Of a DNA stretch of 64,000 nucleotides, positions 8,983 through 61,390 are shown piece after piece. Within the stretch, counting starts at the first letter, position 1; every line of letters begins with the position of its first letter. The position numbers and the translations under genes are program-made. The stretch is from Manis javanica (taxonomy: Eukaryota > Chordata > Mammalia > Pholidota > Manidae), in assembly GCF_040802235.1 (NCBI RefSeq), contig NC_133169.1:44151034-44215033 (forward strand), written 5' to 3'. Under the pieces are notes generated by a model, which was not told the origin of the DNA, made no database searches, and was given only the letters and a program-made list of their open reading frames with translations.

Positions 8983-9928
8983 CTACTTTATAGTTTCTTG
9001 AAAGGCAGATCCCACATCGAAAACTTTCTTTAAAGCTGTCATGACATCCCTATTTCTGAGACTGTGGATTAATGGATTTAGCACAGAAGTGAGTATGGTA
9101 TAAAAGACAGATACCACCATGTCCTTCTCAGGGGTGTGGTAGGAGCTGGGGAGCATGTAATTATACACGGCAGTCCCATAGAAGAGGGTGACCACAGTCA
9201 TATGGGAGGACCAGGTGGCAAAGTCCTTCCTCCGGCCCTCTGCTGAGTTCATACTGTGGATGGTGAGGAGGATGAAACCATAGGAGCCTGAAATGATGGT
9301 CACAGGGATGAGCAGCATGAGGACGCAGCAGAGGTATATGAGTGTCTCATACAGGGAGATGTCTGAGCAGGAGAGCTTCCTCACAGCAGGGACCTCACAG
9401 AAGAAATGATGAATCTCCTGGGGTCTACAGAAGGGAACGGTCATGGTGATGGGAGTGAACAAGAAGCCATCCACAGATGCCAGAGTCCCAGGAGGATGCA
9501 TGCCCTGTGGTTCATGAGGACAGGGTAACAAGGAGGACGCCAGATGGCTGCATAGTGGTCATAACCCATGACAGCTGGAAATAAAAATTCTGATCCTGAC
9601 AGTGTCACATAGAGGAACATCTGCATCCCACATCCAGGGTCTGAGATCGTGTTCACACCTGTGACCCGGTCCATGAGCATCTTACGGACAGTGACAGAAA
9701 TGTACGTCACGTCAATGAGAGACAATGGCAGATGAAAAAGTACATGGGGGTGTGGAGCCGGGCATCAGAGCGTATCAGAAGGATCAGGATGGTGTTTCCA
9801 GGCAAGGCCATCAGGAAAACCATGAAAATGACCACACAAAGGAGAACTGGATGTTTGGATTGACTGAAGATTCCCAGCAGGATGAAATCAGACTGTGCAG
9901 TGTGATTGTCCACCCAGTTGATGTTTTC
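8983..9928 (-). pseudogene. Olfactory receptor pseudogene, OR2T4-like
   Basis: This is a class II odorant receptor relic, a seven-helix GPCR of olfactory neurons. The N-terminal frame contains [14 protein letters not shown] and L-H-T-P-M-Y-F-F. The second frame holds helices 3-4 with a degraded M-A-Y-D-R-Y box (M-G-Y-D-H-Y). The third frame runs from [10 protein letters not shown] through [16 protein letters not shown] and N-P-L-I-H-S-L-R-N to a stop at 8983. It is closest, from memory, to human OR2T4. The expected ATG is GTG (about 9913), an upstream in-frame TGA closes the frame, one base is lost near 9720, and about a dozen bases are missing in helix 4 near 9490. Confidence 0.93.
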
Positions 9929-14775: not shown

Positions 14776-15675
14776 ATGGAGCGGGGCAGCTATTCTGTGT
14801 ACGATGACTTTGTCCTCCTGGAAAAGGCCGCTTTCCCTGGATCCTTTTTGTCCTCATCCTCCTGGGCTTTGCCATTTCCATAGCCAGCAGCACCACCATG
14901 ATCACCGTCATCCCCGGGACCCCCACCTCCACAACCCCGTGTGCTTCCTGCTCCCTTGGAGCTCGCGCTCCTGGACCTCCTGTACCTCTCCACCATCGAG
15001 TCCGAGGTGCTGGTGGACCGGATGGTGGGCCAGCGGGCCAGCTCCTGCACAGCCTGCGCTGCCCAGCACTTCCTCTACTTGACCTGGGCAGGCGCCGAGT
15101 GCTTCCTGCTGGGCTTCATGGCCTATGACCGCTATGTGGCCGCCTGCCACCCCCTCCGCTGTCCTGCCCTCATGAGCTGCAATGTCTGCTTACTCATTGT
15201 GCTGGCAGCCTGGCTGGGAGAGTCTGTAGACGGCTTCTTGCTCACACCAGTCACCATGCAGTTCCGTTTCCGTGCCTCTCGGGAAATCAACCACTTCTTC
15301 TGTGAGGTCCCCGCCCTCCTGAAACTCTCCTGCACGGTCACCTTGGATTATGAGGCGGTCATGTGTGACTGCTGCATCACCATGCTCCTCATCCCTTTCT
15401 CCATCATCTCAGCCTCTTACACAAGGATTCTCATCATGGTCCACAGGACGAGTGAGGCAGACGGAGGGGAAAGGCAGTGGCCACTTGCTCCTCACACATG
15501 GTAGCTGGCAGCCTGTTCTACGGAGCCGCCATGTACACCCACGTGCTGCCTCACTCTTACCACAACCCCCGAACAGGACAAGGCTGTGTCTGCCTTCTAC
15601 ACTACCCTCACTGCCCTTCTCAGCCCACTAATCTACGGCTTCAGGAACAAGGATGTCAAGGGAGCCCAACAGTAG
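14776..15675 (+). pseudogene. Olfactory receptor pseudogene, OR2T27-like
   Basis: The ATG at 14776 opens M-E-R-G-S-Y-S-V-Y-D-D-F, close to my memory of OR2T27. The frame shifts within about 60 bases, continues in a second frame through helix 1, and shifts again near 14940. A third frame stays open to 15504 and carries helices 2-6: [21 protein letters not shown] and F-F-C-E-V-P-A-L-L-K-L-S-C. Further shifts near 15470 and 15570 separate the T-C-S-S-H element, helix 7 (P-L-I-Y-G-F-R-N-K) and the TAG at 15673. The long open middle suggests fairly recent loss. Confidence 0.93.
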
Positions 15676-20951: not shown

Positions 20952-21065
20952 ATTTTTTTATTACTCTTTGCATTATTTTATTTTTATTTATTTATTGTTT
21001 TTAATTTTAATTATTTATCTATTTATTTTTTTATTTTTATTTTTTTTTAGAGGGCATCTCTCATA

Positions 21066-21071
21066 TTTATT
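21066..21071 (-). terminator. Polyadenylation signal AATAAA of the L1-A extension
   Basis: On the minus strand AATAAA is followed 17 bases later by the A-rich tail (21048 leftwards). The identical arrangement occurs in the L1-D tail. It indicates that the chimeric L1 transcript was cleaved at a retrovirus-derived signal rather than at the L1's own end. Confidence 0.85.
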
Positions 21072-21999
21072 GATCAAATGGTTCTTAACAACAATAAAAT
21101 TCTGTATAGGGGAGCCAATGCTTAATGCACAATCATTAATCCACCACAAGCCTAATTCTCGTCAGTCACCAATCTTCTGAAGCATAATGAACAAGTTCTT
21201 ACATGGTGAACAAATTCTTACATAGAGAATGAGTTCTTACATGGTGAACAGTACAAGGGTTGTGATCACAAAAACTTTCAGTTTTTATCACACATTATGA
21301 ACTATAGAAAATCAGGTCAAATAAGAATATTCATTTGATTTTTATACTTGATTTATATGTGAATCCCACATTTCTCCCTTTATTATTATTATTATTATTT
21401 TTTTAATAGAGTGCTGAAGTGATAGATGCAAGATAAAGGTAGAAAACATAGTTTAGTGCTGTAAGAGAACAAATGTAGATGATCAGGTGTGTGCCTGTAG
21501 ACTATGTGTAAATCCAAGCTAGACAAGGGCAATAAAACATCCACGGATGCAGAAGATTTCTCTCAAAACAGGGGTGGGTGAGGTTCTGAGCCTCACCTCT
21601 GTTGATCCCCAATTTCTCACCTGATGGCCCCCCTGCGACTGTGTCTGTCTTAGGCTGTTCCTCCCTTGAGGAATCTTACCCGTCTCTGGCTAACCAGTCA
21701 TCTTCTGGGGCCATACAGGGAAATGTAAAGTTGGTAAGTGAGAAAGAAGTCATATTGTTTGAAAAGGTTAGCTTTTTACTTCTTTGCAGATTTATGCCCT
21801 GTGGCTTCTGTGCCCAGGATTTGTCTTGAGGTATCTTTAGCACTTGGAGGAATTATGATACTCGGTGAATTCGATATGAGGCACAAATTCAATTTAAGTG
21901 TTGTAATAAGGTAGGAAGAAGAAAAGCTATAGAGGTAGCAGACGGAAGAAAAAATCAGAGGTTTGATTATTTCTTTGACATATCTTCTTGTAGAGTAAC

Positions 22000-22410
22000 T
22001 TAAGCATGTATAGGTTTTAAACTACTAATTAAATTGCACACACACATTAACATAATAGGAATACAGTTACATAACCAAAGCAGATCTATAATTACCAGCC
22101 AACTCCAGTGAAGCCAAGAAAACCAGTTAGGCACCCTAGGCATTTGTGAAAATTTGTCTATGATATAATGGATATTGTCCAACTGTACTTGAACAGTCTG
22201 AGAGAAATCAGACAAATTAAAACAACCCATTCCTGGGAACTGTTCACATCCCATATGTTCTTTTAACAGTAGATAGTTTGTAGTTTTAAGATTTTGGAGT
22301 GCTACAACTTGCACTTCTCCTAATTCTTGGTTGAGTTCCAACAGTATAGATCCAGTCAAATTTGTTGTTTTACTGTATGCACAGGCCAGCTTAGATATCT
22401 CCTTCTTCAT
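22000..22410 (-). pseudogene. Retroviral Env transmembrane-subunit fragment, open frame in L1-A tail
   Basis: An uninterrupted 136-codon frame covers the C-terminal part of a retroviral Env TM subunit. It starts near the fusion-peptide end and has an L-E-L-N-Q-E-L heptad region, an L-Q-N element and a cysteine cluster. It then has a W-rich membrane-proximal stretch, a hydrophobic membrane span (near 22100-22030) and a short tail. The cysteine cluster in this copy is C-E-Q-F-P-G-M-G-C, with the second half of the usual C-X6-C-C changed to G-C. The surface subunit is not present as an open frame. The motif class is gamma/type-D-like. This is a fragment, not a working envelope. Confidence 0.85.
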
Positions 22411-22860
22411 TCCAATGGCAAGTCCAGGAACCTGTGGGATGAATGCAGCTACAACTGCAGCATTGCCTGGATATTTGTTGAGTTTTTTTGATGATCATCT
22501 TCTGGTATGACTGTTCCAGAGAGTGCTGATGTTGGAAGTTCTTCTTCATATCGTTCATTTTCTGGGTAGCCAAATTAAGCTTTGATCCTCTGTATAAACA
22601 CAAACAGACCCTTGGCCCACACTTTGATATGCCCTTTATACCATTGTGTAGAACTTATTGGTGGTCATTACCCAGGAACTGTTTTTTTTTAAGAGAAAGG
22701 AATATTATCAGAAAAGTGTACCTCCATAACCAATCATCTGACAACCTTTAAGTGATCAAAATTAAGGATAGTTAAAGCATGCTTTAATCATTGATTTACA
22801 GTTAGTTTTATCCAATCATGGAGTAAACCCTCTTTTCTTTCTTGTATTTTTCTTATCTTT

Positions 22861-23118
22861 AATCTGCACTTACATGGAGAATATTATGTTCACTAGGCTC
22901 TCCACTATACCAGGACACCCCACAAACCCTTTATAGACACTGTTCATCAGCATAGAAAAATGTTGTAGAATACCTACTTGTCTTCTCTGTGTTGTACAGC
23001 CCTCCCCTTTCTCCCACCTCCCCCTATGCATGCTAATCTTAATACCCCCTTCTTCTTCCTCCCCCCTTATCCCTCCCTACCCACCCATCCTCCCCAGTCC
23101 CTTTTCCTTTGGTACCTG
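22861..23118 (-). other. L1-A 3' UTR with G-rich tract
   Basis: This is the short non-coding end of the L1 body. The minus strand of about 22995-23105 is dominated by runs of three to five G with A spacers, the polypurine feature common in mammalian L1 3' UTRs and capable in principle of G-quadruplex formation. The same tract lies at 52060-52172 in L1-D. Confidence 0.8.
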
Positions 23119-26100
23119 TTAGTCCACTCTTGGGTTCTGTGATTCCACTGCTGTTTTGTTCCTACAGTTTTTCCTTTGTTCTTGTACTACACAGATGAGT
23201 GAAATCATTTGGTATTTCTCTTTCTCTGCTTGGCTTATTTCACTGAGCATGATACCATCCAGCTCCATCCAAGTTGCTGCAAATGGTAGGATTAGCCCTC
23301 TTCTTATGGCTGAGTAGTATTCCATTGTGTATATGTACCACATCTTCTTTATCCATTCATCTACCAATAGACATTTAGGTTGCTTACAATTCTTGGCTAT
23401 TGTACATAGTGCTGTGATAAACATAGGGCTGCATCTGTGTTTCTCAAACTTGATTGCTGCTTTCTTAGGGTCAATTCCTAGGAGTAGAATTCCTGGATCA
23501 AATGGTAAGTCTATTTAGAGCATTTTGAGGAACCTCCATACTCCTTTCCACAATGGTTGAACTAATTTACATTTCCGCCAGCAGTGTAGGAGGGTTCCCC
23601 TTTCTCCACAGACTCACCAACATTTGTTGTTCTTTGTCTTTTGGATGGCAGCCATCCTTACTGGTGTGAGGTGATACCTCATTGTGGTTTTAATTTGCAT
23701 TTCTCTGATAATTAGCGATGTGGAGCATCTTTTCATGTGTCTGTATTTCTTTTTAGGAGAACTGACTGTTCAGTTCCTCTGCCCATTTTTTAATTGGATT
23801 ATTTGATTTTTGTTTGTTGAGGTGTGTGAGCTCTTTATATATTTTAGACATCAAGCCTTTATCGGATCTGTCATTTACAAATATATTCTCCCATACTGTA
23901 GGGTTCCTTTTTGTTCTATTGATGGGATCTTTTGCTGTACAGAAGCTTTTAAGCTTTATATAGACCCACTTGTTCATTTTTGCTGATGTTGTCCTTGCCC
24001 GGTGAGATATGTTCAAGAAGAAGTCACTCATGTTTATGTCTAAGAGGTTTTTGCCTATGTTTTTTTCCAAGAGTTTAATGGTTTCATGACTTACATTCAG
24101 GTCTTTGATCCATTTTGAATTTACTTTTGTATATGGGGTTAGACAATGGTCCAGTTTCATTCTCCTACATGTAGCTATCCAGTTTTGCCAGCACCATCTG
24201 TTGAAGAGACTGTCATTTCACCATTGTATGTCCATGGCTCCTTTATCAAATATTAATTGACCATATATGTTTGGGTTAACATCTGGAGTCTCTAATCTGT
24301 TCAACTGGTCTGTGGCTCTGTTCTTGTGCCAGTACCAAATTGTCTTGATTACTATGGCTTTGTAGTAGAGCTTGAAGTTGGGGAGTGAGATCCCCCCTAC
24401 TTTACTCTTCTTTTTCACGATCACTTTGGCTATTCGGGGTCTTTGGTGTTTCCATATGAATTTTTGAATTATTTGTTCCAATTCATTGAAGAATGTTGTT
24501 GGTAATTTGATAGGGATTGCATCAAATCTGTATATTGCTTTAGGCAGGATGGCCATTTTGACGATATTAATTCTTCCTAGCCATGAGCAGGGGATGAGTT
24601 TCCATTTGTGACTGTCCCCTTTAATTTCTCTTAAGAGTGACTTGTAGTTTTCAGAGTATAATTCTTTCACTTCTTTGGTTAGGTTTATTCCTACATATTT
24701 TATTCTTTTTGATGCAATTGTGAATGGAATTGTTTTCCCGATTTCCCTTTCTTTTGGTTCATTGTTAGTGTATAGGAAAGCTTCAGATTTCTGTGTGTTA
24801 ATTTTGTATCCTGCAACTTTGCTGAGTGGAGTCTTTAGGGTTTTTTATGTACAGTATCATATCATCTGAAAATAGTGACAGTTTAACTTCTTCTTTAGCA
24901 ATATGGATTCCTTGTATTTCTTTGTTTTGTCTGATTGCCATGACTAGAACCTACAGTATTATGTTAAATAACAGTGGGGAGAGTGGGCATCCCTGTCTGG
25001 TTCCCGATCTCAGAGGGAATGCTTTCAGCTTCTTGCTGTTCAGAATAATGCTGGCTATGGTTTTATCATATATGGCCTTTATTACGTTGAGGTACTTGCC
25101 CTCTATTCCCATTTTGCTGAAAGTTTTTATCATGAATGGATGTTGACTTTTGTCAAGTGCTTTTTCAGCATCTCTGGAGATGATCATGTGGTTTTTGTCT
25201 TTCCTTTTGTTGATGTGGTGGATGATGTTGATGGATTTTCAAATGTTGTACCATCCTTGCATCCCTGGGATGACTCCCACTTGGTCATTGTGTATGATCC
25301 TTTTGATATACTGTTAAATTCTGTTTGCTAATATTTTATTGAGTATTTTTGTATCTACATTCATCAGGGACATTGGTCTGTAATTTTCTTTTTTGGTGGG
25401 GTCTTTGCCTGGTTTTGGTATTAGGGTGATGTTGGCTTCATAGAATGAGTTTGGGAGTATTCTTTCCTCTTCTATTTTTTGGAACACTTTAAGTAGAATG
25501 GGTATTATGTCTTCTCTGTGTGTCTGATAAAATTCCGAGGTAAATCTGTCCAGCCCCTGGGTTTTGTTCTTGGGTAGTTTTTTGATTACAGTTTCAGTTT
25601 CTTTGCTCGTAATTGGTTTCTTTAACTTTTGTGTTTCTTCCTTGGTCAGTCATGGGAGGTTGTATTATTCTAGGAAGTTGTCCATTTCTTCTAGGTTTTC
25701 CAGCTTGTTGGCATATAGGTTTTCTTAGTTGTCTTTAATAATTCTTTGTATTTCTGTGGGGTCTGTTGTGATTTTTCCATTCTCATTTCTGATTATGTTG
25801 ATTTGTGTTGATTCTCTTTTTCTCTTAGTAAGTTTGGCGAGAGGCTTATCTATTTTGTATATTTCCTCAAAGAACCAGCTCTTGGTTTCATTGATTTTTG
25901 CTATTGTTTTATTCTTCTCAATTTTGTTTATTTATTCTGTGATCTTTATTATATCCCTCCTTCTGCTGACTTTAGGCCTCATTTGTTCTTCTTTATCAGT
26001 TTCGATAGTTGTGATGTTAGACTATTCATTTGGGATTGTTCTTCCTTCTTCAGGTGTGCCTGGATAGCTATATACTTTCCTCTAAACACTGCTTTTGCTG

Positions 26101-26983
26101 CATCCCACAGAAGTTGGGGCTTTGTGTTGTTGTTATCATTTGTTTCTATATATTCCTTGATCTCTATTTTGATTTGTTCATTGATCCATTGATTATTTAG
26201 AAGCATGTTGTTAAGCCTCCATGTGTTTGTGAGCCATTTTGTTTTCTTTGTAGAATTTATTTCTAGTTTTATACCTTTGTGGTCTGAAAAATTGGTTGGT
26301 AGAATTTCAATATTTTGCATTTTTCTGAGGCTCTTTTTGTGACCTAGTATGTGGTCTATTCTGGAGAATGTTCCATGTGCACTTGAGAAGAATGTATATC
26401 CTGTTGCTTTTGGATGTAGAGTTCTATAGATGTCTGTTAGGTCCTTCTGTTCTAGTATGTTGTTCAATGCCTGTGTGTCCATACGTATTTTCTGCCCAGT
26501 GGATCTATCCTTTGGGGTGAGTGGTGTGTTGAAGTCTCCTAAGATGAATGCATTGCAATCTATTTCCCTCTTTAGTTCTCTTAGTATTTGTTTCACAAAT
26601 GCTGGAGCTCCTGTGTTGAGTGCATATATAGTTAGAATGGTTAGATCCTCTTGTTGGACTGAGCCCTTTATCATTATGTAGTGTCCTTCTTTATCTCTTG
26701 TTACTTTCTTTGTTTTGAAGTCTATTTTGTCTGATATTAGTACTGCAACCCCTGCTTTCTTTTCACTGTTGTTTGCCTGAAATATGTTTTTCCATCCTTT
26801 GACTTTTAGTCTGTGCTTGTCTTTGGGTTTGAGGTGAGTTTCTTGTAAGCAGCATATAGATGGGTCTAGCTTTTTTATTCATTCTATTACTCTGTGTCTT
26901 TTGATTGGTGCATTAAGTCCATTTACATTTAGGGTGACTATTGAGAGATATGTACTTATTGACATTGCAGGCTTTAGATTCGT
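23119..26983 (-). pseudogene. L1-A ORF2 pseudogene (endonuclease-reverse transcriptase)
   Basis: The frame should start at 26983 but the ATG is ACG there. The largest open part, 26674-25979, covers the endonuclease with G-D-F-N-T-P, a T-F-F-S-S-A-H-G-T-F-S-R-I-D-H stretch and N-F-S-D-H, the family's catalytic elements. The reverse-transcriptase part follows in several frames. The active-site box near 24851-24880 reads F-S-D-D instead of F-A-D-D. The C-terminal segment (23424-23119) keeps the [16 protein letters not shown] element. Multiple stops and shifts make it non-functional. Confidence 0.92.
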
Positions 26984-27160
26984 GGTTACCAAAGGTTCAA
27001 GGTTAGCATCTTTAGTATCTTACTGCCTAACTTAGCTCACTTATTGAGCTGTTATATACACTGTCTGGAGATTTTTTTCTTCTCTCCCTTCTTATTCCTC
27101 CTCCTCCATTCTTCATATGTTGTATGTTTTGTTCTGTGCTCTTTTTAGGAGTGCTCCCAT

Positions 27161-28051
27161 CTAGAGTACTCCCTGTAAGATGCCCTGTAGAGGTGGTTTG
27201 TGGGAAGAAAATTCCCTCAGCTTTTGCATGTCTGGGAATTGTTTAATCCTGCCATCATATTTAAATGATAGTCGTGCTGGATACAGTATCCTTGGTTCAA
27301 GGCCCTTCTGTTTCATTGCATTAAATATATCATGCCATTCTCTTCTGGCCTGTAGGGTTTCTGTCGAGAAGTCTGATGTTAGCCTGATGGGTTTTCCTTT
27401 ATAGGTGACCTTTTTCTCTCTAGCTGCCTTTAAAAGTCTTTCCTTGTCCTTTATCCTTGCCATTTTAATTATTATGTGTCTTGGTGTTGTCCTCATTGGA
27501 TCCTTTCTTTTGGGATTTCTGTGTATTTCTGTGGTCTGTTCGATTATTTTCTCCCCCATTTTGGGGTCGTTTTCAGCAATTATTTTTTCAAAGAGACTTT
27601 CTATCCCTTTTCCTCTTTCTTCTTCTTCTGGTACCCCTATAATACAAATATTATTCCTTTTGGATTGGTCACATAATTCTCTTAGTGTTGTTTCGTTCCT
27701 GGAGATCCTTTTATCTCTCTCTATGTCAGCTTGTACACGTTCCTGTTCTCTGGTTTCTATTCTTTCAATGGCCTCTTGCATCTTATCCATTCTGCTTATA
27801 AATCCTTCCAGGGATTGTTTCACTTCTGTGATCTCCTTCCTGACATCTGTGATCTCCCTCTGGGCTTCATCCCATTGCTCTTGCATTTTTCTCTGCATCT
27901 CATCCCGTTGCTCTTGCATTTTTCTCTGCATCTTTGTCAGCATGTTCATGATTTTTATTTTGAATTCTTTTTCAGGAGGACTGGTTAGGTCTGTCTCCTT
28001 CTCAGGTGTTGTCTCTGTAATCTTTGTCTGCCTGTAGTTTTGCCTTTTCAT
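27161..28051 (-). CDS. L1-A ORF1, intact L1 RNA-binding chaperone (ORF1p)
   Basis: The 296-codon frame is uninterrupted from ATG at 28051 (M-K-R-Q-N-Y-R-Q) to TAG at 27161. The frame stays open a further 32 codons upstream, with a second ATG four codons earlier. ORF1p forms trimers through a coiled coil and coats L1 RNA. The order is a charged N-terminus, a coiled coil (about residues 35-120), the RRM region from R-E-L-C-D-Q-S-K-R-N-N, and the C-terminal domain ending in S-F-K-Y-D-G-R-I-K-Q-F-P. The coiled coil contains an 11-residue tandem duplication (27868-27933) absent from the L1-B and L1-D copies. It is the only intact retrotransposon gene in the window, and its partner ORF2 is dead. 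Confidence 0.88.
   Translation of the reverse strand: MKRQNYRQTKITETTPEKETDLTSPPEKEFKIKIMNMLTKMQRKMQEQRDEMQRKMQEQWDEAQREITDVRKEITEVKQSLEGFISRMDKMQEAIERIETREQERVQADIERDKRISRNETTLRELCDQSKRNNICIIGVPEEEERGKGIESLFEKIIAENDPKMGEKIIEQTTEIHRNPKRKDPMRTTPRHIIIKMARIKDKERLLKAAREKKVTYKGKPIRLTSDFSTETLQARREWHDIFNAMKQKGLEPRILYPARLSFKYDGRIKQFPDMQKLREFSSHKPPLQGILQGVL
27868..27933 (-). repeat. 33-bp tandem duplication in ORF1 coiled coil
   Basis: Units 27868-27900 and 27901-27933 differ at one base. Each encodes M-Q-R-K-M-Q-E-Q-(R/W)-D-E. Eleven residues make one hendecad, three helical turns, which can be added to a coiled coil without breaking it. L1-B and L1-D have one unit at the same place. Confidence 0.88.
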
Positions 28052-29009
28052 GGTGATAAACATAGTTTGCAGAGCTGGTACGAGTGACCGCTGGAAGAGC
28101 TTTCCTTCTTGTTGGTTTGTGGCCTTCCTCTCCTGGGACAATAGCAACCTCTAGTGGCTTATGCTTGGCAGCTGTGTGCAGATAGGGCTTCTGCTACCTG
28201 CCTGGTTGCTATGGAGTTTATCTCTGCTGTTGCTTTGGGCATGGCCTGGCTGGGGCTGCTCCTCCTAAATGGTGGAGCCCCGCTCGAAGGGGAGCTGCCG
28301 GGAGGCTATTTGTCTCTGTAATGCGCCTCTGCGCTCCCTGTTGCCCAGGGGATTAGAGTGCCCAGAGATCCCCAGATTCACTGCCTCTGTGGTAAGTGTC
28401 CTGTCCTGCCCCTTTAAGACTTCCAAAAAGCACTCTCCAAACCAAAACAACAACAGCAGCAACGAAAGAGGAAAAAAAAAAAAAAGGAAAAAACGCGATT
28501 TTCTTTGTTCTCAGGTGCTGGTCTCAGGCACCTGCTCACCGGTCTTGCTGTCTTGTTTCCCTAGAATTGGGGTCCTTGTCCCCTTAAGGCTTCCAAAAAG
28601 CACTCACCAAAAAAAAAGCTAAAAACGTGTGATTTTCTTTGTCCTCGGGAGCTGGTATCAGGTACCTGCTCACCGGTCTTACTGCCCTTTTTCCCTGGTA
28701 TTGGGGTCCCTGTCCCTTAAAGGCCTCCAAAAAGCACTCGCCAAAAAAAAAAGAAAAAAAATGCTCCGGTTTCTTTCCACCCACGGGGAGCTGGGGGGAG
28801 GGGCACTCGGATCCCGCCGGTCTGGGCTTGTATCTTACCCTCTTCGTGAGGTGCTGGGTTCTCGCAGGTGTGGATGTGGTTTGGACGTTGTCCTGTGTCC
28901 TCTGGTCTCTATTTTAGGAAGTTGTCTTTGTTATATTTTCATAATTCTATGTGGTTTTGGGAGGAGAGTTCCTCTGCTCTACTCATGCCACCATCCTGGC
29001 TCCACCCCC
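28052..29009 (-). promoter_or_regulatory. L1-A 5' UTR with tandem promoter-like units
   Basis: This leader contains repeated units at about 28411, 28582 and 28714 (listed separately). The 5' end at 29009 starts as in the other copies with a run of G and then tggagcc, but the YY1-type motif is degraded here (ccaggatgg). The region between 28150 and 28400 is GC-rich. Open frames here (up to 143 codons) show no known domain. Confidence 0.75.
28400..28770 (-). repeat. Tandem units in L1-A 5' UTR (about 2.5 copies)
   Basis: A unit of about 130-170 bp begins with the plus-strand pattern 'cccttaaggcttccaaaaagcactc' type text at about 28411, 28582 and 28714. It continues through an A-rich tract of variable length, 'ttttctttgt', 'ctgctcaccggtctt' and 'ttggggtcc'. 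Unit length varies mostly with the A-tract. L1-B has two units (from 37521 and 37673) and L1-D about one (46690-46785). Variable tandem units in an L1 leader resemble the monomer promoters of rodent L1s. Confidence 0.85.
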
Positions 29010-41400: not shown

Positions 41401-42899
41401 TTTTTATCTCGAGTATTACTCTTAATCCATTTTTGATGAACACTCAAAAAACAAAAAGGCTCTCTACTGCTCTGATAATTTTTGCTACTCAATAAATGGT
41501 GTTTTTTTCCTGCTTGATGCTTTGGAGACTATATATTTGACTGTCATGGAACCAAAACATCCAGGTGTATTGATAGTATTGGTGGCTGATAAATTTTATA
41601 AAAATATTTCTTCAGTAATTCTGTCTCTTAAATGGGAAGAGGTATACATTAAAGTATAATTAATAATGCTAACAGTAATAATAAATAGGCAACTCACCCC
41701 TCAACATCCCTGAACATATCCAAAAAATGCATGTTTATATGCCTCAAGAATGAAAACTGGAAACTTTGAGAAGTGATCCCATTTAGTTCAAGGGGGTTTT
41801 AGTAGTATTATATCTTTTCCCTTAAATATTCAGGAATTTCTTTCTCATATGGGGTTATCTTTACTTATAAATATGAAGAGTAAGGTAACAGGAGAAAAAT
41901 AAATGGTAAGGAATGGAAAAAAAAACTAGCAATAGATCCCAGGATACAATAATATTTTTATAGGATCAGAATGCCATTCTGGGAAACAGTTTAAGAAACT
42001 GTTAACATTTTGGCTGAACAATAATTTAAGAGAAGCCTGGGTTACTACATCATAATAGAAGCCAGTATTAAGTCATAAAATTTCAACCCCCTCCGTGATG
42101 TTGACCAGAAGGCCCATCACAGTAATGAACCCAAAGCCCTGCTCAGGAGTAAGTCTGTCTGACTGTGGAAATCCACATTAGAGATCTGTCACCCCAACTC
42201 ATCCTTGAGGTGAGCTGTACCTGAAACCTCAGCTTTGGCAGCACCTCTGGTCCCCAGCCCACTGCACCCTGACCCTCAATTTGAAGTAACATTTCTTTGT
42301 TGATCCTTGATGTTCCCACTATGCACAAAGCTGTTTAACAACAGAAGCCATTTACCTGGATTTATTGGTGCTGTGCTTATTTTCTATCAGTTTATGAGAT
42401 TGCAAATGTGTGTCACTATGTGTGATCTTAACAATGCAATCATCTTAATGGCAGAGAAAAATTTAAAGTCAAGCAGCCCATTATCAGTGACTTGGGGGCA
42501 ATATGGAGAGGAAGGTGCCACTATTTACCTCAGGAAGTATTCAGTCTAAATTGATAGGATCATGAAAAGGTAAAGAAGGTGGTTAAGCATAAAAATAAAC
42601 TCTGGAAGTTGTACTGTATGAGCAACATTTACATTTCTTATCCAGCCTACAGAGCCATAAACCCATAAACAGCCTTTCATAGGTAACAAAACTGAGTTAG
42701 TTTACACTTTAATTTATCTGTCCAAAGTCACAGAGACCATTAACATTGAAACCAGGATTCAAAATGATTCTTTCTTTGTCCTTCATTGCTTCTGACATGC
42801 CATTTTGGGTGGGTCCTCCTGAAATATTGGATTATGAATTAATCCGCAAACATTCTGCCTTTGGAGCCCTAGGAGCGACCAAGTGAGGCGGGCATATAG
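38401..42899. other. 4.5-kb intergenic stretch upstream of the OR2T2-like relic
   Basis: I recognise no gene. A GC-richer block at 39490-40290 gives open frames of up to 192 codons on the plus strand, with no domain, and frames on both strands overlap there. I treat them as composition effects. A MIR-like piece near 42670-42770 is listed separately. Confidence 0.55.
42670..42770 (-). repeat. MIR-like ancient SINE fragment
   Basis: The text 'ataggtaacaaaactgag' followed by 'ctgtccaaagtcacagag' and 'ccaggattcaaa' is the complement of the MIR middle region. It lies just before the OR2T2-like relic. Confidence 0.65.
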
Positions 42900-43856
42900 G
42901 CCGCTCCCCAGAACTCCACTGACTTTACCCTCCTGGGCCTTGTCACCCGTCTTGCATCCCCTGGGCTTGTCTTTGCCGTGGTCTTCTCCATCTTTATCCA
43001 TAATGGCCAACGCCCTCATGATCCTGCTCATCTGCGTGGACGCTCGCCTGCACACGCTCATGTACTTCTTGCTCAGCCAGCTCTCCACCATGGACATGGT
43101 CTATATCTGCATCACCGTCCCCAAGATGCTGCGAGACCTTCTTTTCGAGGAAAAGGTCATCTCCTTCCTGGGCTGTGCGCTTCAGATCTTCCTTTACCTG
43201 ACCCTGATTGGAGGTGAATTTCTCCTTCTGGGCCTCATGGCCTATGACCGGTATGTGGCTGTGTGCAACCCCCTCAGGTACCCTCTCCTCATGACCCGCA
43301 GGATTTGCCTGCTCATTGTGGTGGCCTCCTGGATTGGCGGCTCCCTGGATGGATTCCTACTCACCCCCTTCATCATGAGTTTCCCTTACTATGGATCCCG
43401 AGAGATCATTCACTTCTTCTGTGAGATCCCAGCTGTGCTGAAGCTGTCCTGTGTGGACACATCGCTCTATGAGACCATGATGTATGCCTGCTGCGTGCTC
43501 ATGCTGCTCATCCCTGTATCCGTCATCTCTGACTCCTACATGCGCATCCTGCTCACTGTCCATCGGAAGAGCTCTGCTGAGGGCCGGCGCAAAGCCTTTG
43601 CTACCTGCTCTTCCCGTATTATGGTGGTGACCATTTCTATGGGGCAGCCTTCTACACGAATGTGCTTCCCCATTCCCACCACACACCAGAGAAAGACAAG
43701 GTTGTGTGGGCCTTCCACACCATCCTCACCCCCATGCTCAACCCACTCATCTACAGTTTGAGGAATAAAGAGGTGGCTGCAGCTCTAAGGAAAGGGCTGG
43801 GGAGATGCACCTCCTCCCAGAGAATCAGAGCAGGGGATGCGCCCAGAAAACCCTAG
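42900..43856 (+). pseudogene. Olfactory receptor pseudogene, OR2T2/OR2T3-like
   Basis: A long open middle covers helices 1-6 of a class II OR. It includes [47 protein letters not shown] and [14 protein letters not shown]. It is close, from memory, to the OR2T2/3/34/35 group. The N-terminus ([11 protein letters not shown]) is in another frame, joined by a shift near 43003, and has no ATG; a TAG lies four codons before it. A one-base deletion near 43634 puts helix 7 ([14 protein letters not shown]) in a third frame ending at 43856. The highly preserved body suggests recent inactivation. Confidence 0.94.
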
Positions 43857-46298: not shown

Positions 46299-47136
46299 GG
46301 GGGTGGAGCCAAGATGGTGGTGTGAGTAGAGAAGCGGGAATCTCCTCCCAAAACTACATATATTTATGAAAATATAACAAGGACAACTCTTCCTAGAATA
46401 GAGACCAGAGGACACAGGAAAACATGCAGACCACATGCACACCTGCGAGAACTCAGTGCCTCGCAAAGGTGGTAAGATACAAGCCCCAGCCCAGTGGGAC
46501 CCGAGTGCCCCTACTCCCACCTCCTGGCAGGAGGAGAGGAGTCAGAGCAGGGAGGGAGAAGGGAGCCAGGACTGCTGAACACCCAGCCCCAGCCATCAAG
46601 ACCAGAGCACAGACACAGTGCATGTGTGGGGTCCTGGATACTAGGGAAACAGGGCAGGAAGACCAGTGAGTGGGTCCCAGAGGCCAGCACCTGAGGACAA
46701 AGAAAAGCGAGAGGCTTTTGTTTTGTTTTGTTTTATTTTGTTTTGTTTTGGCGAGTGCTTTTTGGAAGTCTTAAAGTGACAGGGTGAGATGCTTAGTCTA
46801 GAGGAAGGGAATCTGGGGATCTCTGGGCACTATAACCCCCTGGGCAGCAGGAAGCACAGACGCAACTCACAGAGATAAATAGCCTCACTCCCTCTTCCCC
46901 TACAATGCAGCTCCACAATTTTGGAGCTGCAGCCTGAAACAGGCCATGCCCACAGAGACAGCAGACATAAACTCCATAGCAGCCAGGCAGGAAGCAGAAG
47001 CCCTGACTGCACGCAGCTGCACAGCACAAGCCACTAGAGGTTGCTGTTCTCCCAGAAGAGGAGGGCCACAAACCAACAAAAAAGGAAGTTCTACCAGCAG
47101 TCACTTGTCCCAGCTCTGCAAACTACTTCTAAAACC
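46299..47136 (+). promoter_or_regulatory. L1-D 5' UTR, about one tandem unit
   Basis: A YY1-like motif, caagatggt, lies at 46310-46318, one base off the form in L1-B and L1-C. One tandem unit equivalent to those of L1-A and L1-B lies at about 46640-46785. Its A-rich part appears on this strand as a (GTTTT)n tract at 46718-46750. The T-rich orientation shows that this simple repeat grew from a different part of the unit, or by independent slippage, compared with L1-B. Confidence 0.7.
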
Positions 47137-47988
47137 ATGAAAAGGCAAAATTACAGGCAAACCAAGATCACAGAGACAACAGCAGAGAAGGAGGCAGACC
47201 TAACCAGTCTTCCTGAAAAAGAAATATAAGTAAAAAAAATAAACATGCTGATGGAGATGGAGAGAAATATGCAAGAACTAAGGGAGGAAGTCTGGAGGGA
47301 GATCACAGATGCCAGGAAGGAGATTACAGAAGTGAAACAAACTCTGGAAGGATTTATAAGCAGAATGGATAAGATGAAAGAGGCCATTGATGGAATAGAA
47401 ACCAGAGATCAGGAATGCATAAAAGCTGACATAAAGAGAGATAAAAGGATCTCCAGGAATGAAACAATATTAAGAGAACTGTGTGACCAAGCCAAGAGGA
47501 ACAATGTCCATATTATAGAGGTACCAGAAGAAGAAGAGAGAGAAAAAGGGATAGAAAGTGTCTTTGAAGAAATAATTGCTGAAAACTTACCCAAAATGGG
47601 GGAGAAAATAATCGAACACACCACAGAAATACACAGAACTCCCAACAGAAAGGACCCGAGGACACCAAGACACATAAAAATTAAAATGGCAAAGATCGAG
47701 GACAAGGAAAGAGTTTTAAAGGCAGCTAGAGAGAAAAAGGTCATCTATAAAGGAAGACCCATCAGGCTATCATCAGACTTCTCGACAGAAACCTTACAGG
47801 CCAGAAGACAATGGCATGATATATTTAATGCAATGAAACAGAAGAGCCTTGAACCAAGGATACTGTATCCAGCACGATTATCATTTAAATATGACAGAGG
47901 GATCAAACGATTTCCAGACAAACGAAAGCTGAGGGAATTTGCCTCCCACAAACCACCTATACAGAGCATCTTAGAGGGGATGCTCTAG
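47137..47988 (+). pseudogene. L1-D ORF1, nearly intact (one in-frame stop)
   Basis: The ATG at 47137 (M-K-R-Q-N-Y-R-Q) opens a frame interrupted by a single TAA at 47227. From an in-frame ATG at 47245 the remaining 247 codons are open to TAG at 47986 and contain most of the coiled coil, the R-E-L-C-D-Q element and the whole C-terminal domain. It carries one coiled-coil unit. Apart from that stop, the upstream and downstream parts share one frame, so the damage is slight compared with ORF2. Confidence 0.9.
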
Positions 47989-48163
47989 ATGGGAGCACTC
48001 CTAGAAAGAGCACAGAACAAAAAAACCAACAAATGAAGAATGGAGAAGGAGGAATAAGAAGGGAGAGAAGAAAAGAATCTACAGACAGTGTATAACAGCT
48101 CAATAAGCGAACTAAGCTAGGCAGTGAGATACTAAAGAGGCTAACCTTGAACCTTTGGTAACC

Positions 48164-51100
48164 ATGAATTTAAAGCCTGCAATGGCAGTAAGTACACATC
48201 TTTCAATAGTCACCCTAAATGTAAATGAACTGAATGCACCAATCAAAAACAAAGAGTAATAGAATGGATTAAAAAAAGCAAGATCCATCTATATGCTTCT
48301 TACAAGAAACTCACCTCAAACCCAAAGACATGCACGGACTAAAAGTCAAGGGATGGAAAAATATATTTCAGGCAAACAACAGCAAGAAGAAAGCAGGGGT
48401 TGCAGTACAAATATCAGACAAAACAGACTTCAAAACAAAGAAAGTAACAAGAGATAAAGAAGGACACTACATAATGATAAAGGGCTCAATCCAACAAGAG
48501 GATATAACCATTCTAAGTATATATGCACCCAACACAGGAGCACCAGCATATGTGAAACAAATACTAACAGAACTAAAGGGGGAAATAGACTGCAATGCAT
48601 TCATTTTAGGAGACTTCAACACACCACTCACCCCAAAGGATAGATCTACTGGGTAGAAAATAAGTAAGGACACAGAAGCAGTGAACAACACAGTAGAACA
48701 AATGGACGAAATAGACATCTATAGAACTCCACATCCAAAAGCAACAGGATATACATTCTTCTCAAGTGCACATGGAACATGCACCAGAATAGACCACTTA
48801 CTAGCCCACAAAAAGAGCCTCAGCCAAAATATTAAAATTCTACCAACCAACTTTTCAGACCACAATGTTATAAAATGAGTAATAAATTCTACTATGAAAA
48901 AAAAGGCTCACAAACACATGGAAGCTTAACAACATGCTCCTAAATAATCAATGGATCAACAAACCAATTAAAAAAGAGATCAAGGAATATATGGAATCAA
49001 GTGACAACAACAACAAAAAGACCCAACTTCTGTGGGATGCAGCGAAAGCAGTCCTAAGAGGAAAGTATATAGCAATCCAGGCACACTTGAAGAAGGATGA
49101 ACAATGCCATGTGAATAGTCTAACATCACAATTATCAAAACTGGAAAAAGAAGAACAAATGAAGCCTAAAGTCAGCAGAAGGAGGGACATAATAAAGATC
49201 AGAGAAGAAATAAACAACATTGAGAAGAATAAAACAATAGCAAAAATCAATGAAACAAAGAGCTGGTTCTTTGAGAAAATAAACAGAATAGATAAGCTCT
49301 AGCCAAACTTATTAAGAGAAAAAGAGAATCAACACAAATAAACAGCATCAGAAATGAGAACAGAAAAATCACGACAGACTCCACAGAAAAAAAAAATTAT
49401 TAAATACTACTATGAAAACCTATATGCCAACAAGCTGGAAAACCTAGAAGAAATGGACAACTTCCTAGAAAAATACAACCTTCCAAGACTGACCAAGGAA
49501 GAAACACAAAAGTTAAAAAAACCAATTATGAGCAACAAGATTGAAACAGTGATTAAAAAACTACCCGGAAACAAAACCCCAGGCTGGACGGATATACCTC
49601 GGAATTTTATCAGACACACAGAAAAGACATACCCATTCTCCTTAAAGTTTTCCAAAAAATAGAGGAACAGGGAATACTCCCAAACTCATTGTATGAAGCC
49701 AACATCACCCTAATACCAAAACCAGGCAAAGACCCCCACAAAAAAGAAAATTACAGACCAGTATCACTGATGAATGTAGATGCAAAAATGCCCAGTAAAA
49801 TATTAGCAAACCATATTCAAAAGTATATAAAAAGGATCATACACCATGACCAAGTGGGATTCATCCAAGGGATGCAAGGATGGTACAACATTTGAAAATC
49901 CATCAACATCATCCACCAGATAAACAAAAAGAAAGACAACCGCATGATCATCTCCATAGATGCTGAAAAAGCATTTGACAAAATTCTACATCCATTTATG
50001 ACAAAAACTCTCAGAAAAACGGGTACAGAGTGCAAGTACCTCAGCATAATAAAGGCCATATATGATAAGCCACAGACAACATCATACTGAACAGCGAGAA
50101 GCTGAAAGCTTTTCCTCTGATACCAGGAACAAGACAGGGATGTGCACTCTTCTCACTGTTATTTAACATACTACTGGAGGTCCTAGCCATGGGAATCAGA
50201 GAAAATAAAGAAATACAAGGAATACAGATTGGTAAATAAGAACTTAAACTGTCACTATTTGTAGATGACATGATATTGTACATAAAAATCCCCAAAGTCT
50301 CCACTCCAACACTAGTAGAACTGATATCAGAATACAGCAGAGTTGCAAGATACAATATTAACACAAAGAAATCTCTGGCTTTCCTATATACTAACAATAA
50401 ACCAATAGAAAGAGAAATCAGTAAACAATTCCATTCACAATTGCATGAAAAAAATAAAATACCTAGGAATAAACCTAACCAAGGAAGTGAAAGACCTATA
50501 CCCTGAAAACTGCAAGTCACTCTTAAGAGAAATTAAAGGGGACACTAACAAATGGAAACACATCCCATGCTTGTGGCTGGGAAGAATTAATATCGTCAAA
50601 ATGGCCATCCTGCCCAAAGCAACATACAGATTTCATGCAATCCCTATCAAATTACCAGCAACATTCTTCAATGAACTGGAACAAATAATTCAAAAATTCA
50701 TATGGAAACACCAAAGACACTGAATAGCCAAAGCAATCCTGAGAAAGAAGAATAAAATATGGGGGATAACACTCCCCAACTTCAAGCCCTAATACAAAGC
50801 CATAGCAATCAAGACAATTTGGTACTGGCACAAGAACAGAGCCACAGACCAGTGGAACAGATTAGAGACTCCAAACATTAACCCAAACATATATGGTCAA
50901 CTAATATTCGATAAAGGGGCCATGGACATACAATGGTGAAATGACAGTCTCTTCAACAGATGGTGCTGGCAAAATTGGACAGCTACATGTAGGAGAATGA
51001 AACTGGACCATTGTCTAGCCCCATACACAAAAGTAAATTCAGAATGTATCAAATACATGAATGTAAGTCATGAAACCATACAACACTTAGAAAAAAACAT

Positions 51101-51985
51101 AGACAAAAACCTCTTAGATATAAACATGAGTGACCTCTTCTTGAACATATCTCCCCGGGAAAGGAAAACAAGAGCAAAAATGAACAAGTGGGACTATATT
51201 AAGCTGAAAAGCTTCTATACAGCAAAAGACACCATCAATAGAACAAAAAAGTACCCTACAGTATGGGAGAATATATTTGTAAATGACAGATACAGTAAAG
51301 GCTTGATCTCCAAAATATATAAAGAGCTCCCCACCTCTACAAACAAAAAACAAATAATCCAATTAAAAAATGGGCAGAGGAACTGAACAGACAGTTCTCC
51401 AAAAAAGAAATACAGATGGCCAACAGACACATGAAAAGATGCTCCACATCACTAATTATCAGAGAAATTCAAATTAAGACCACAATGATATATCACCTCA
51501 CACCAGTAAGGATGGCTGACATCCAAAAGACAAACAACAACAAATGTTGGCGAGGTTGTGGAGAAAGGGGAACCCTCCTACACTGCTGGTGGGAATGTAA
51601 ATTAGTTCAACCATTGTGGAAAGCCATATGGAGGTTCCTCAAAATGCTCAAAATAGACATACCATTTGACCGAGACATTCCACTCCCAGGAATTTATCCT
51701 AAGAATGCAGCACTCAAGTTTGAAAAAGACAGATGCACCCCTATGTTTATCACAGCACTATTTACAATAGCCAAGACTAGGAAGCAATCTAAGTGTCCAT
51801 CATTAGATGAATGGATAAAGAAGATGTGGTACATATACACAATGGAATATTACTCAGCCTTAAGAAGAATACAAATCCTACCATTTGCAACAACATGGAT
51901 GGAGCTAGAGGGTATTATGCTCAATGAAATAATCCAAGTGGAGAAAGAGAAATACCAAATGATTTCACTCATCTGTAGAGTATAA
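48164..51985 (+). pseudogene. L1-D ORF2 pseudogene
   Basis: The ATG at 48164 (M-N-L-K-P-A-M-A) is kept. The endonuclease is split: 48330-48656 carries A-F-I-L-G-D-F-N-T-P, and 48681-48878 carries Y-T-F-F-S-S-A-H-G-T and N-F-S-D-H. The reverse transcriptase follows in pieces, with the active-site box at about 50249-50280 reading F-V-D-D. The C-terminal part, 51416-51985, is a long open stretch with the Cys-rich element [18 protein letters not shown] and [11 protein letters not shown]. At least eight interruptions make it inactive. Confidence 0.93.
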
Positions 51986-52333
51986 GAACAAAGGAAAAAC
52001 TGAAGGAACAAAACAGCAGTGGAATCACAGAACCCAAGAATGGACTAACAGGTACCAAAGGGAAAGGGACTGGGGAGGATGGGTGTGTAGGGAGGGATAA
52101 GGGGGGGGAAGAAGAAAGTGGGTATTATGACTAGCATGCATAATGGGGAGGGTGGGAGAAACGGGAGGGCTGTACATCACAGAGAAGACAAGTAGTGATT
52201 CTACAACATTTTGCTATCCTGATGGACAGTGACTGTAAAGGTGTTTGTGGGGGGACCCTGGTATAGGGGAGAGCCTATTAAACATAATATTCCTCATGTA
52301 ATTGTAGATTAATGATAAAAAAAGAAAGAAAAG
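51986..52333 (+). other. L1-D 3' UTR and internal A-rich tract
   Basis: Bases 52060-52172 are a purine tract with many G runs, homologous to 22995-23105. The L1 body then ends in an A-rich tract at 52316-52333. This is the remnant of the ordinary L1 poly(A) position, and its survival inside the element is the hallmark of read-through into downstream sequence. Confidence 0.8.
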
Positions 52334-52739
52334 GGGGATTACTCTCTTATAGGATAAAACTAACTGTAAATCAATGATTAAAGCATGCTTTAAATATCCT
52401 TATTTTTGATCATTTAAAGGGTGTCAAATGATCAGCTATGGAAGTACATTTTTCTGATAATATTCCTTTCTCTTAAAAAAAAGCAGTTCCTGTGGGGTGA
52501 TATCCAATGTGTTCTTCACAATGATATAAAGGGCATATCAAAGTGTAGGCATAGGGTTTGTTTGTGTTTATACAGAGGATCAAAGCCTAATTTGGCTACC
52601 CAGAAAACGAATTATGATACGATATGAAGAAAAACTTCCAACATCAACATTGTCTGAAAGAGTCATTCCAGAAGATGATCATCAAAAAACTTCAACAAAG
52701 ATCCTGGCGCTGTTGCAGTTGTAGCTGCATTCATCCCTG

Positions 52740-53202
52740 TGGTTACTGGACTTGCCATTGGAATGAAGAACGAGATATCTAAGCTGGCCTGTCCATACAG
52801 TAAAACAACAAATTTGACTGGATGTATACTGTTGGAACTCAACCAAGAATTAGGAGAAGTGCAAGTTGCAGTTCTCCAAAATTGTGCAACTATAGACTAC
52901 TGTTAAAAGAACATATGGGATGTGAACAGTTCCCAGGAAAGTGTTGTTTTAATTTGTCTGATTTTTCTCAAACTATTCAAATTCAGTTAGACAATATCCA
53001 TCATATTATTGATAAGTTTTCACAAATGCCTAGGGTGCCTAACTGGTTTTCTTGGTTTCACTGGAGATGGCTGGTAATTGTAGGTCTGCTTTGGTTATGT
53101 AGCTGTATTCCTATTATGTTAATGTGTGTGTGCAATTTAATTAGTAGTTTAAAACCGATATATGCTTATGTTACTCTACAAGAAGATATGTCAAAGAAAT
53201 AA
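52740..53202 (+). pseudogene. Retroviral Env transmembrane-subunit fragment in L1-D tail, one frameshift
   Basis: This is the counterpart of 22410-22000. Its N-terminal part (to about 52895) reads in one frame and ends in a stop. The rest is open in another frame, overlapping from 52822 to 53202, so a shift lies near 52900. The cysteine cluster is C-E-Q-F-P-G-K-C-C, a complete C-X6-C-C as in gamma/type-D retroviral TM subunits. W-rich membrane-proximal and membrane-span segments follow. The cytoplasmic tail is about ten residues longer than in the L1-A copy, which has an earlier stop. No complete surface subunit is present. Confidence 0.85.
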
Positions 53203-54109
53203 TCAATCTTCCCATGTTTTCTTCCATCTGCTACTTCTATACCTTTTCTTCTTCCTTCCTAATTCCAACCCTTAAGTACAATTCGTGCTTCATAACAAAA
53301 TTACTGAGAATCATAATTCTTCCAAGTGGTAAAGTTACCTCAAGACAAATGCTGGGCATAAAAGCCACAGGGCATAAATCTGCAAAGAAGTAAAAAGCTA
53401 ACCTTTTCAAACAATATTGCTTCTCTCTCACTTACCAACTTTACATTTACCTGTATGACCCTGGAAGAAGACTGGTAAGTCAGAGACGGGTAAGATTCCT
53501 CAAGGGAGGAACAACCTAAGGACTGTGCCTAAGACAGGCACTGTCTCAGGGGGGCCATCAGGTGAGAAATTGGGGATCAACAGAGGTGAGGCTTAGATCC
53601 CCACACCCCCTGTTTTGAGAGAAATCTTCTGCATCCATGGATGTTTTGTTGCCTTTGTCTAGCTTGGATTAATACTTAGTCTAGAGACACACACCTGATC
53701 ATCTACATTTGCCCTCTTACAGCACTAAACTATGTTTTCTATCTTTATACTGCATCTACCTACCACTTCAACATTTTATTAAAAATAATAATAATAACAA
53801 TAATAATAAGGGAGAAATTTGGGATTCACATATAAATCAAGTATAAAAATTGAACGAATATTCATATTTGACCTGATTGTTTATAGTTCATAATGCGTGA
53901 TCAAAACTGAAAGTTTCTGTGATGACTGTGTTTGCACTGTTCACCATGTAAGAACTTATTCACTATGTAAGAATTTGTTCACCATCTAAGAACTTGTTCG
54001 TTATGCTTCAGAAGATTGGAGACTATTGAGAACTAGGCTTGGGGTTGATTAATGATTGTGCATTGAGGCCCCTATACAGAATTTTATTGTTGTTAACAAC
54101 CATTTGATC

Positions 54110-54115
54110 AATAAA
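54110..54115 (+). terminator. Polyadenylation signal AATAAA of the L1-D extension
   Basis: AATAAA is followed 19 bases after its first A-run by the ten-base poly(A) at 54134. The same signal and the same cleavage point are used in the L1-A copy. Confidence 0.88.
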
Positions 54116-54224
54116 TATGAGAGATGCCCTCTCAAAAAAAAAAGAATAAACTATTGTCAGCTGAATTTGCACTATCAGTGAATACTTTGATTTACTCCAT
54201 AATTACATGTATATACATACATAG

Positions 54225-60442: not shown

Positions 60443-61390
60443 ATGAAGAATAGAACTTTGCCAGCAGACTTTATCCTCCTGGGGCTTCAGGTAAACAGCA
60501 AAGCTTCATTAACAGTCTTTGCAATTATTTTTGCTATTTTTGTGATGGCTGTAACTGCAAATGTCATGATATCCTTGATTCAGGTGGACTCCCGCTTCCA
60601 CACCCCCATGTACTTCCTGCTCAGCCAGTTGTCCGTGATGGACACTGTTTTCATTTGTAGCACTGTCCCAAAGCTCCTGGTTGACATGGTTTCTAAGGAG
60701 AAGACCATTTCCTTTGTGGGCTGTGGAATCCAGATCTTCCTCTATTTGACCATGATCGGTGCAGAGTTCTTCCTCCTGGGCCTCATGGCCTATGACTGCT
60801 ATGAGGCCGTGTGTGACCCTCTGCGGTACCCCGTCCTGATGAACTGCAGGGTGTGTCTTCTGCTGGCTGCTGGTGCCTGGTTGGTGGGTCCCTGGATGGC
60901 TTGCTGCTCATGCCCGTCACCATGAATTTCCCCTACTGTGTCTCCCACCTCATCAACCATTTCTTCTGTGAGATCCCTGCAGTTCTTAGGCTGGCCTGTG
61001 CCAACATATCCTTCTATGAAACCCTAATGTACATCTGCTGTGTAATCATGCTGCTCATCCCAGTCTCTGTTATTGCAGCCTCCTACTCCCTCATCTTGCT
61101 AACCGTCCACTGCGTGCGCTCCCCTGAAGGCCTGAGAAAGGTCTTTAGTACGTGCTCTTCCCACTTGACTGTGGTCAGCATTTTCTATGGGGCTGCCTTC
61201 TATACACACATATGTGCTTCCCTAGTCCTTCCACACCCCTGAGAAGGACAAGATAGTATCAGCCTTCTACACCTTCGTCACACCCATGCTCAACCCTCTC
61301 ATCTATTGCCTCAGAAACAAGATGTCACAGGGGCATTTAGAAAGACATTTGTACAGTGCTCTTCCAAAAGCACCCACAAGGGATGCTTAA
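60443..61390 (+). pseudogene. Olfactory receptor pseudogene, OR2T11-like
   Basis: The ATG at 60443 opens M-K-N-R-T-L-P-A-D-F-I-L-L-G-L and runs through helices 1-4: S-T-V-P-K-L-L-V-D-M-V-S-K-E-K and [16 protein letters not shown]. It resembles OR2T11, whose human form, from memory, also has C for R in this D-R-Y box. A one-base loss near 60884 moves helices 4-6 into the frame seen to 61242. A two-base gain near 61208 and a one-base loss near 61322 break helix 7 and the tail. TAA lies at 61388-61390. Three small indels and few substitutions suggest late loss. Confidence 0.94.

Follow-up and report, generated by a model that had tools for sequence, protein, structure and literature searches.

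In a 3' transduction by a long interspersed element 1 (L1), the transcript reads through past the L1 polyadenylation signal, and the insertion shows a relict A-tract, a second poly(A) and target-site duplications (TSDs) around the whole. Here we describe an L1 lineage in which such a tail, most probably the end of a provirus, has become the 3' end of the element itself. It was recognised in a 64,000-nucleotide stretch of the Manis javanica genome (contig NC_133169.1, positions 44,151,034 to 44,215,033 of the forward strand; hereafter the window), where two L1 copies, L1-D and L1-A, continue into a common block of retroviral type. L1 3' transductions are named in PMC12593883, the relevant part of which also derives the SINE-R of SVA elements from the env 3' end and 3' long terminal repeat (LTR) of HERV-K10. 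As far as that account goes, SVA resembles the present unit in being mobilised as a non-LTR element and in having a 3' end made of the final part of a retroviral env gene and of LTR sequence that stops at the poly(A) site and passes into an A-tail; it differs in being composite and non-autonomous; the tail described here sits on L1. The hexamer, Alu-like and variable-number tandem repeat body of SVA is absent, the body before the tail being L1, which in 11 of 20 long copies runs from the L1 5' end. The transmembrane (TM) segment of the block is similar to that of avian sarcoma and leukosis virus (ASLV); the unit is likened to SINE-R by layout, and not by sequence against HERV-K10.

With L1 3' transductions the unit shares a relict A-tract, a second poly(A) at the far end and TSD-like repeats around the whole, but here the tail is the fixed 3' end of a clade, is found at thousands of junction sites and has brought a retroviral signal with it. 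In the Chinese pangolin, ERV-Gamma.b9-Mpen holds an almost complete LINE-1 between ENV and the 3' LTR, according to the section of PMC12584738 that deals with it. This is the arrangement that a founder locus would need, although it belongs to a gamma lineage of the Chinese pangolin and that section describes no mobile L1-env unit. ARTenvV likewise shows env-derived sequence moved by L1 machinery, complete with TSDs and a short A-tail, but as presented in the pertinent part of PMC9604959 it is a single env-gene retrocopy that L1 made in trans, outside any L1. Among openly licensed PMC papers, no L1 lineage with a retroviral tail was found. The unit is best read as a fixed SINE-R-like 3' transduction on a high-copy L1. 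We put the probability at roughly 0.85 that it stems from a single ancient 3' transduction in which L1 took up the end of a provirus, and that this end now serves an L1 lineage, copied as a unit, as its own 3' end. An L1 fused with a retroviral env/LTR end has kept replicating as one high-copy element; the lineage offers a means to test whether capturing a viral poly(A) signal benefits an L1, and where env-TM or LTR ends are counted in a genome of this kind, the numbers can reflect L1 activity instead of retroviral invasion.

Two L1 copies in the window share one retroviral block

L1-D (46299-54143, plus strand) and L1-A (20952-29009, minus strand) lie in opposite orientation, and both continue into the common block of approximately 1.8 kb. 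When the window was compared with itself by BLAST, 21030-27904 aligned with 54150-47250 on the minus strand (88.8% identity, 6952 columns), and the matches ended at the element limits (21030/54150 and 29010/46298). The block is therefore collinear with L1 in both copies while the flanks are not common, and the halt at both element ends indicates that this is not a duplicated locus; shared flanking sequence, named in the initial annotation as the mark of a segmental duplication, is thus lacking for the two copies. Identity between D and A per bin was similar in the L1 body (0.893-0.915 over 47250-52330) and the extension (0.872-0.917), and lower solely at the L1 5' end (0.789). By reading, the block of L1-D ends at 54133, 18 nt past AATAAA (54110-54115), and that of L1-A at 21049, 17 nt past AATAAA (21071-21066), both followed by A. 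The same block, order and terminal base had been claimed for both copies, and the shared L1 plus retroviral block arrangement is confirmed as real in each. The features are as follows.

46299-52310, plus: L1-D body, running from its 5' terminus through the ancestral L1 3' untranslated region (UTR); start from the self-BLAST, end from tail-less L1s, which turn A-rich just past D52310
52311-52333, plus: relict A-rich tract between the L1 3' end and the extension, probably a fossil poly(A)
52334-52529, plus: first part of the extension, present in 31/31 aligned copies
52530-52705, plus: pol-end-like stretch overlapping the start of the env-like frame, with no surface subunit (SU) after it (frames in 30 loci)
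52706-53202, plus: Env-TM segment, from the fusion-peptide-like stretch to the env stop, its frame broken in L1-D (translation, PDB match of the L1-A frame, homologous proteins)
53203-53807, plus: non-coding stretch from env to the polypurine-tract (PPT)-like sequence, (AAT)n-rich at its end (sequence; 5/5 sampled terminal sites)
53808-53817, plus: PPT-like AAGGGAGAAA, a putative function assigned from its sequence
53818-54133, plus: stretch resembling the U3 and R regions of an LTR (U3-R-like), with AATAAA at 54110-54115 and the terminal base of the unit at 54133 (terminal 28-mer sites)
54134-54143, plus: poly(A) of L1-D (sequence)
22861-29009, minus: L1-A body (self-BLAST; domains of the ORF1 frame; mapped 3' end)
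22831-22860, minus: relict A-rich tract of L1-A (sequence)
21049-22830, minus: extension of L1-A, in order and end as in L1-D, with an open TM frame at 22000-22410 (alignment)
20952-21048, minus: A-rich tail of L1-A, including a candidate TSD of 11 bp (sequence)

The ORF1 frame of L1-A (27161-28147) matched PF02994 (E 1e-21) and PF17490 (E 5.2e-20) in Pfam. ORF2 frames are broken in both window copies, and a Pfam scan of the ORF2 C-terminal piece 51416-51985 alone listed no family. The 11-bp TSD candidate of L1-A is the sole one and is A-rich.

The fused unit is multicopy in the source genome

The genome from which the window comes (2.56 Gb, 63 contigs) was searched with the L1/extension junction (52200-52450), as the initial annotation had proposed. 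The query gave 2413 first-look candidates and matched in all 40 places scored, one of them the window itself, with at least 247 of 251 bases matched at 91-100% identity on many contigs; the junction is multicopy. A set of 29 short loci (L002-L030) was aligned with D and A, and 20 of the remaining 39 junction places, those most D-like, were taken as long loci of 9.5 kb each. The extension was present in all 31 aligned copies, with the L1 3' end aligning poorly in L015 and L026; near-identical duplicates were found among the fetched copies (L003/L004, L022/L023, L027/L028/L029).

The long loci differ in their flanks. Eleven of the 20 begin at the full-length 5' start, D46299-46307 (L035 and L041 with large internal gaps). 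In 19 of the 20 the last base is D54133, after which an A-run or A-rich repeat begins; L040 ends at D54099. The expectation that copies carry their own poly(A) was therefore borne out, and that of own TSDs in part. The 13 long loci with a clean 5' end were compared, counting as TSD-like a match score of at least 22, the 95th percentile of 156 mismatched pairings (maximum 30). Repeats of this quality enclose the whole L1 plus block unit in eight copies, among them L040, which starts inside ORF2; in the other five no convincing TSD was seen.

L1 and block are separated by a short A-rich tract, seen at the junctions displayed (12 of 20) and in the 31 extended ends listed, and five tail-less L1 3' ends from the same stretches turn A-rich at the matching point. 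When 36 L1 3' ends were placed in a midpoint-rooted tree, all 31 with the extension fell into a single clade and the five without a tail stood apart from it. The extended copies had been chosen for D-likeness and include near-identical duplicates, and among the tail-less ends L032 and L033 are nearly identical to each other. Nearest to the extended clade is the tail-less L1 in L048, 88% to D. The tree agrees with the earlier suggestion that the fused unit is a replicating subfamily. The fused unit is mobile as a single L1 element: some of its copies are full-length and others 5'-truncated, TSD-like repeats occur around them, and the 3' terminus is fixed. It is copied in the manner of target-primed reverse transcription, in several subfamilies with some copies 97.7-99% alike.

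A segmental duplication of one locus within a receptor-gene cluster could be considered in view of the several similar receptor-like frames in the window and the few near-identical copies fetched. However, the flanks of L1-A and L1-D are unrelated and matches occur on many contigs with different flanks, and we attach practically no weight to this explanation.

Termini, subfamilies and the retroviral signal

The terminal 28-mer of the unit has 18,164 exact sites in the genome (9109 + 9055; reversed control 0), a number of sites and not of independent insertions, since some lie in repeated arrays. A follows directly at 17,992 of these, and another base at 172; 19 of 20 sampled non-A termini become A-rich within 6 nt, the exception being L053. 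The initial annotation had proposed that the viral signal acts as a strong new L1 terminator, and in position this holds: the retroviral AATAAA marks the 3' end of the L1 RNA, presumably also as a strong signal.

We considered whether the 18,164 termini are copies of the D-type unit. This is contradicted by the D-type junction 26-mer, for which 85 exact sites were found (45 with T, 40 with C), and most termini are hence not D-type copies. Five plus-strand termini were sampled from the head of the list on contig C1, and the post-env block lies upstream of all five. Three of them (L072, L073, L074) are 97.7-99% alike, a subfamily of younger age than the copies in the window. Two of the five were read at the junction distance, and one of these, L077, shows L1 3' UTR, then the A-tract and the extension, at 80% to D and at 86% to its best match. 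A 32-mer adjacent to the L077 junction, representative of a divergent subfamily, has 4,460 exact sites. Within the C1 stretch covered by both lists it lies 1750-1769 bp from an exact terminus in 21 of 29 cases, one of these having a second terminus at 2321. As judged from these sequences, the larger family and the window copies appear to share one architecture in diverged subfamilies.

Alternatively, the block could be an independent L1-mobilised element, in effect a free SINE-R-like unit, that inserts at L1 poly(A) tails. U3-R-like ends do occur in tandem, once also behind other DNA (L038), and of the two sites sampled at the junction distance, one lacks L1. This is difficult to reconcile with the identical junction and A-tract in the extended copies listed, which form a single clade, with the fixed 1750-1769 bp spacing at 21 of 29 sites, and with the TSD-like repeats of eight of the 13 copies, which enclose L1 and block together and not the block alone, as the initial annotation had thought conceivable. 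We regard an independent element as highly improbable.

Composition of the extension

The TM frame of L1-A (136 aa) matched the ASLV fusion TM and gp95 (PDB 4jpr and 5h9c, E 2.4e-8) and, more weakly, PDB chains named GP2 Ectodomain and Envelope glycoprotein, which supports the retroviral env-TM label given to the block at the outset. Homologous TM proteins numbered 48 in public contigs, the contigs being mostly short. Counting against the label, Pfam listed no family for either TM piece. Env SU is absent: in the frames of 30 loci, the fusion-peptide-like stretch comes directly after the short pol-end-like stretch. Past the env stop, approximately 600 non-coding bases lead to the PPT-like tract and then to a stretch ending at the poly(A) site, which opens with TGTGGG in four of the five copies read (A, L031, L038 and L045), D being one base off. 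As no U5 was seen, it is from this layout that we infer the U3-R identity of the final stretch, which is probably LTR-derived. TM homology and the poly(A) terminus are consistent with a tail derived from an env 3' end plus, presumably, an LTR to its poly(A) site.

The 20 long loci were also inspected for an LTR pair, a check suggested in the initial annotation. U3-R-like matches are confined to the 3' end or tail repeats, with L1 upstream and no paired LTRs around the block or around gag-pol-env. In public viral contigs, three exact patterns gave no match and a profile scan gave 10 pattern matches and no relatives, and a pattern scanned against prokaryote genome contigs likewise found none; in each of these collections, records near the source genome may be excluded. 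A carnivore SINE motif had 0 matches in 362 kb, a result that carries no weight for the identity of the host.

TM is most probably carried along as a passenger. In favour of translation of the TM-only frame and its retention as a third reading frame of L1, 16 of 31 copies (near-identical duplicates included) have a stop-to-stop frame of 160 residues or more that contains TM. Frame-shifting indels are also less frequent in TM, with 19 versus 109 in the post-env stretch when L011 is the reference and 17 versus 69 when it is L002, but the post-env stretch is rich in simple repeats, which may account for many of its indels. Furthermore, synonymous, non-synonymous and stop counts in TM equal those of shuffles with either reference (L011, L002), and shared variants show no third-position excess (8/16/11), although these tests have low power, the ORF2 controls giving 23/19/30 and 47/41/48. 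A retained TM gene is therefore a very remote prospect.

Origin of the fused unit

The likeliest route to the founding capture is from an adjoining provirus. A founder L1 would have inserted in the provirus in the same orientation, upstream of env-TM; its transcript would then have passed its own signal and been cleaved at the R-region signal of the provirus, and retrotransposition of this readthrough L1-provirus RNA would have created the fused unit. The same unit might instead have been founded by template switching of the L1 reverse transcriptase between endogenous retrovirus and L1 transcripts, with an identical later history. Several copies have tail-internal restarts at A-rich tracts, a sign that A-tract switching may take place in the family, and no donor locus is known. 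On the other hand, the relict A-tract lies exactly at the old L1 end and is followed by foreign DNA, the usual mark of a readthrough 3' transduction, and we consider template switching unlikely.

Besides the lack of a donor locus and the tandem U3-R-like ends, a number of observations weigh against an old 3' transduction copied as a unit. No TSD is visible for L1-D, five of the 13 copies compared have no convincing one, and seven of the 20 long loci lay outside that comparison. D-type junctions are few relative to termini; the L1 attachment of the larger subfamily rests on a single junction, that of L077, and L076 gave no match at the junction distance, as expected of a shorter copy. The pol-end-like stretch has as its best Pfam match IN_DBD_C at E 0.11, below the cut-off and in one of four pieces, with no match in a PDB search. 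Finally, a U5-like continuation is common to none of the 20 sampled termini not followed by A.

With the 3' transduction as starting point, it can be asked what the tail has done for its host element. A captured end that is a better terminator, possibly with other retroviral RNA signals, could have let this lineage become a main, recently active L1 of this genome in place of the tail-less L1s, a suggestion that we make tentatively and hold to be doubtful at present.

Tandem tails and further observations

In L031 (8454-8804) and L045 (8433-8781), the last ~350 bases are tandemly copied, restarting at the (AAT)n tract. Tandem spacings of 370, 372 and 378 occur among 100 listed termini (C1 2241795/2242165/2242537 and 6426341/6426719). 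Re-priming of nascent cDNA at internal A-rich tracts is perhaps behind these tails. Extra pieces that restart at D51365 right after an A-run were found at 5673 in L042, 8789 in L045 and 9099 in L047 (oriented loci).

In L038 (561-9165, oriented), the L1, its tail and an A-run are followed by ~230 bp of different DNA, an (AAT)n tract and another U3-R-like end, and one pair of TSD-like repeats flanks the whole series. The fused unit can itself read through, here in a second-order 3' transduction.

Junction copies recur in arrays, with six on contig C25 (G000:C25 1368771-2155220) and three, ~20 kb apart, on C1 (C1:168243860-168283836). A unit of ~140 bp is tandemly repeated in the 5' region of L1-A (window 28477-28751, 85%), and overlaps resembling this repeat are also present near the L1 5' ends of L031, L039 and L043. 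Elsewhere in the window, the frames 8983-9531 (minus), 14941-15504 (plus), 42883-43761 (plus) and 60443-61242 (plus) are related and 70-74% alike; by their look, we take them to be olfactory-receptor-like genes or remnants.

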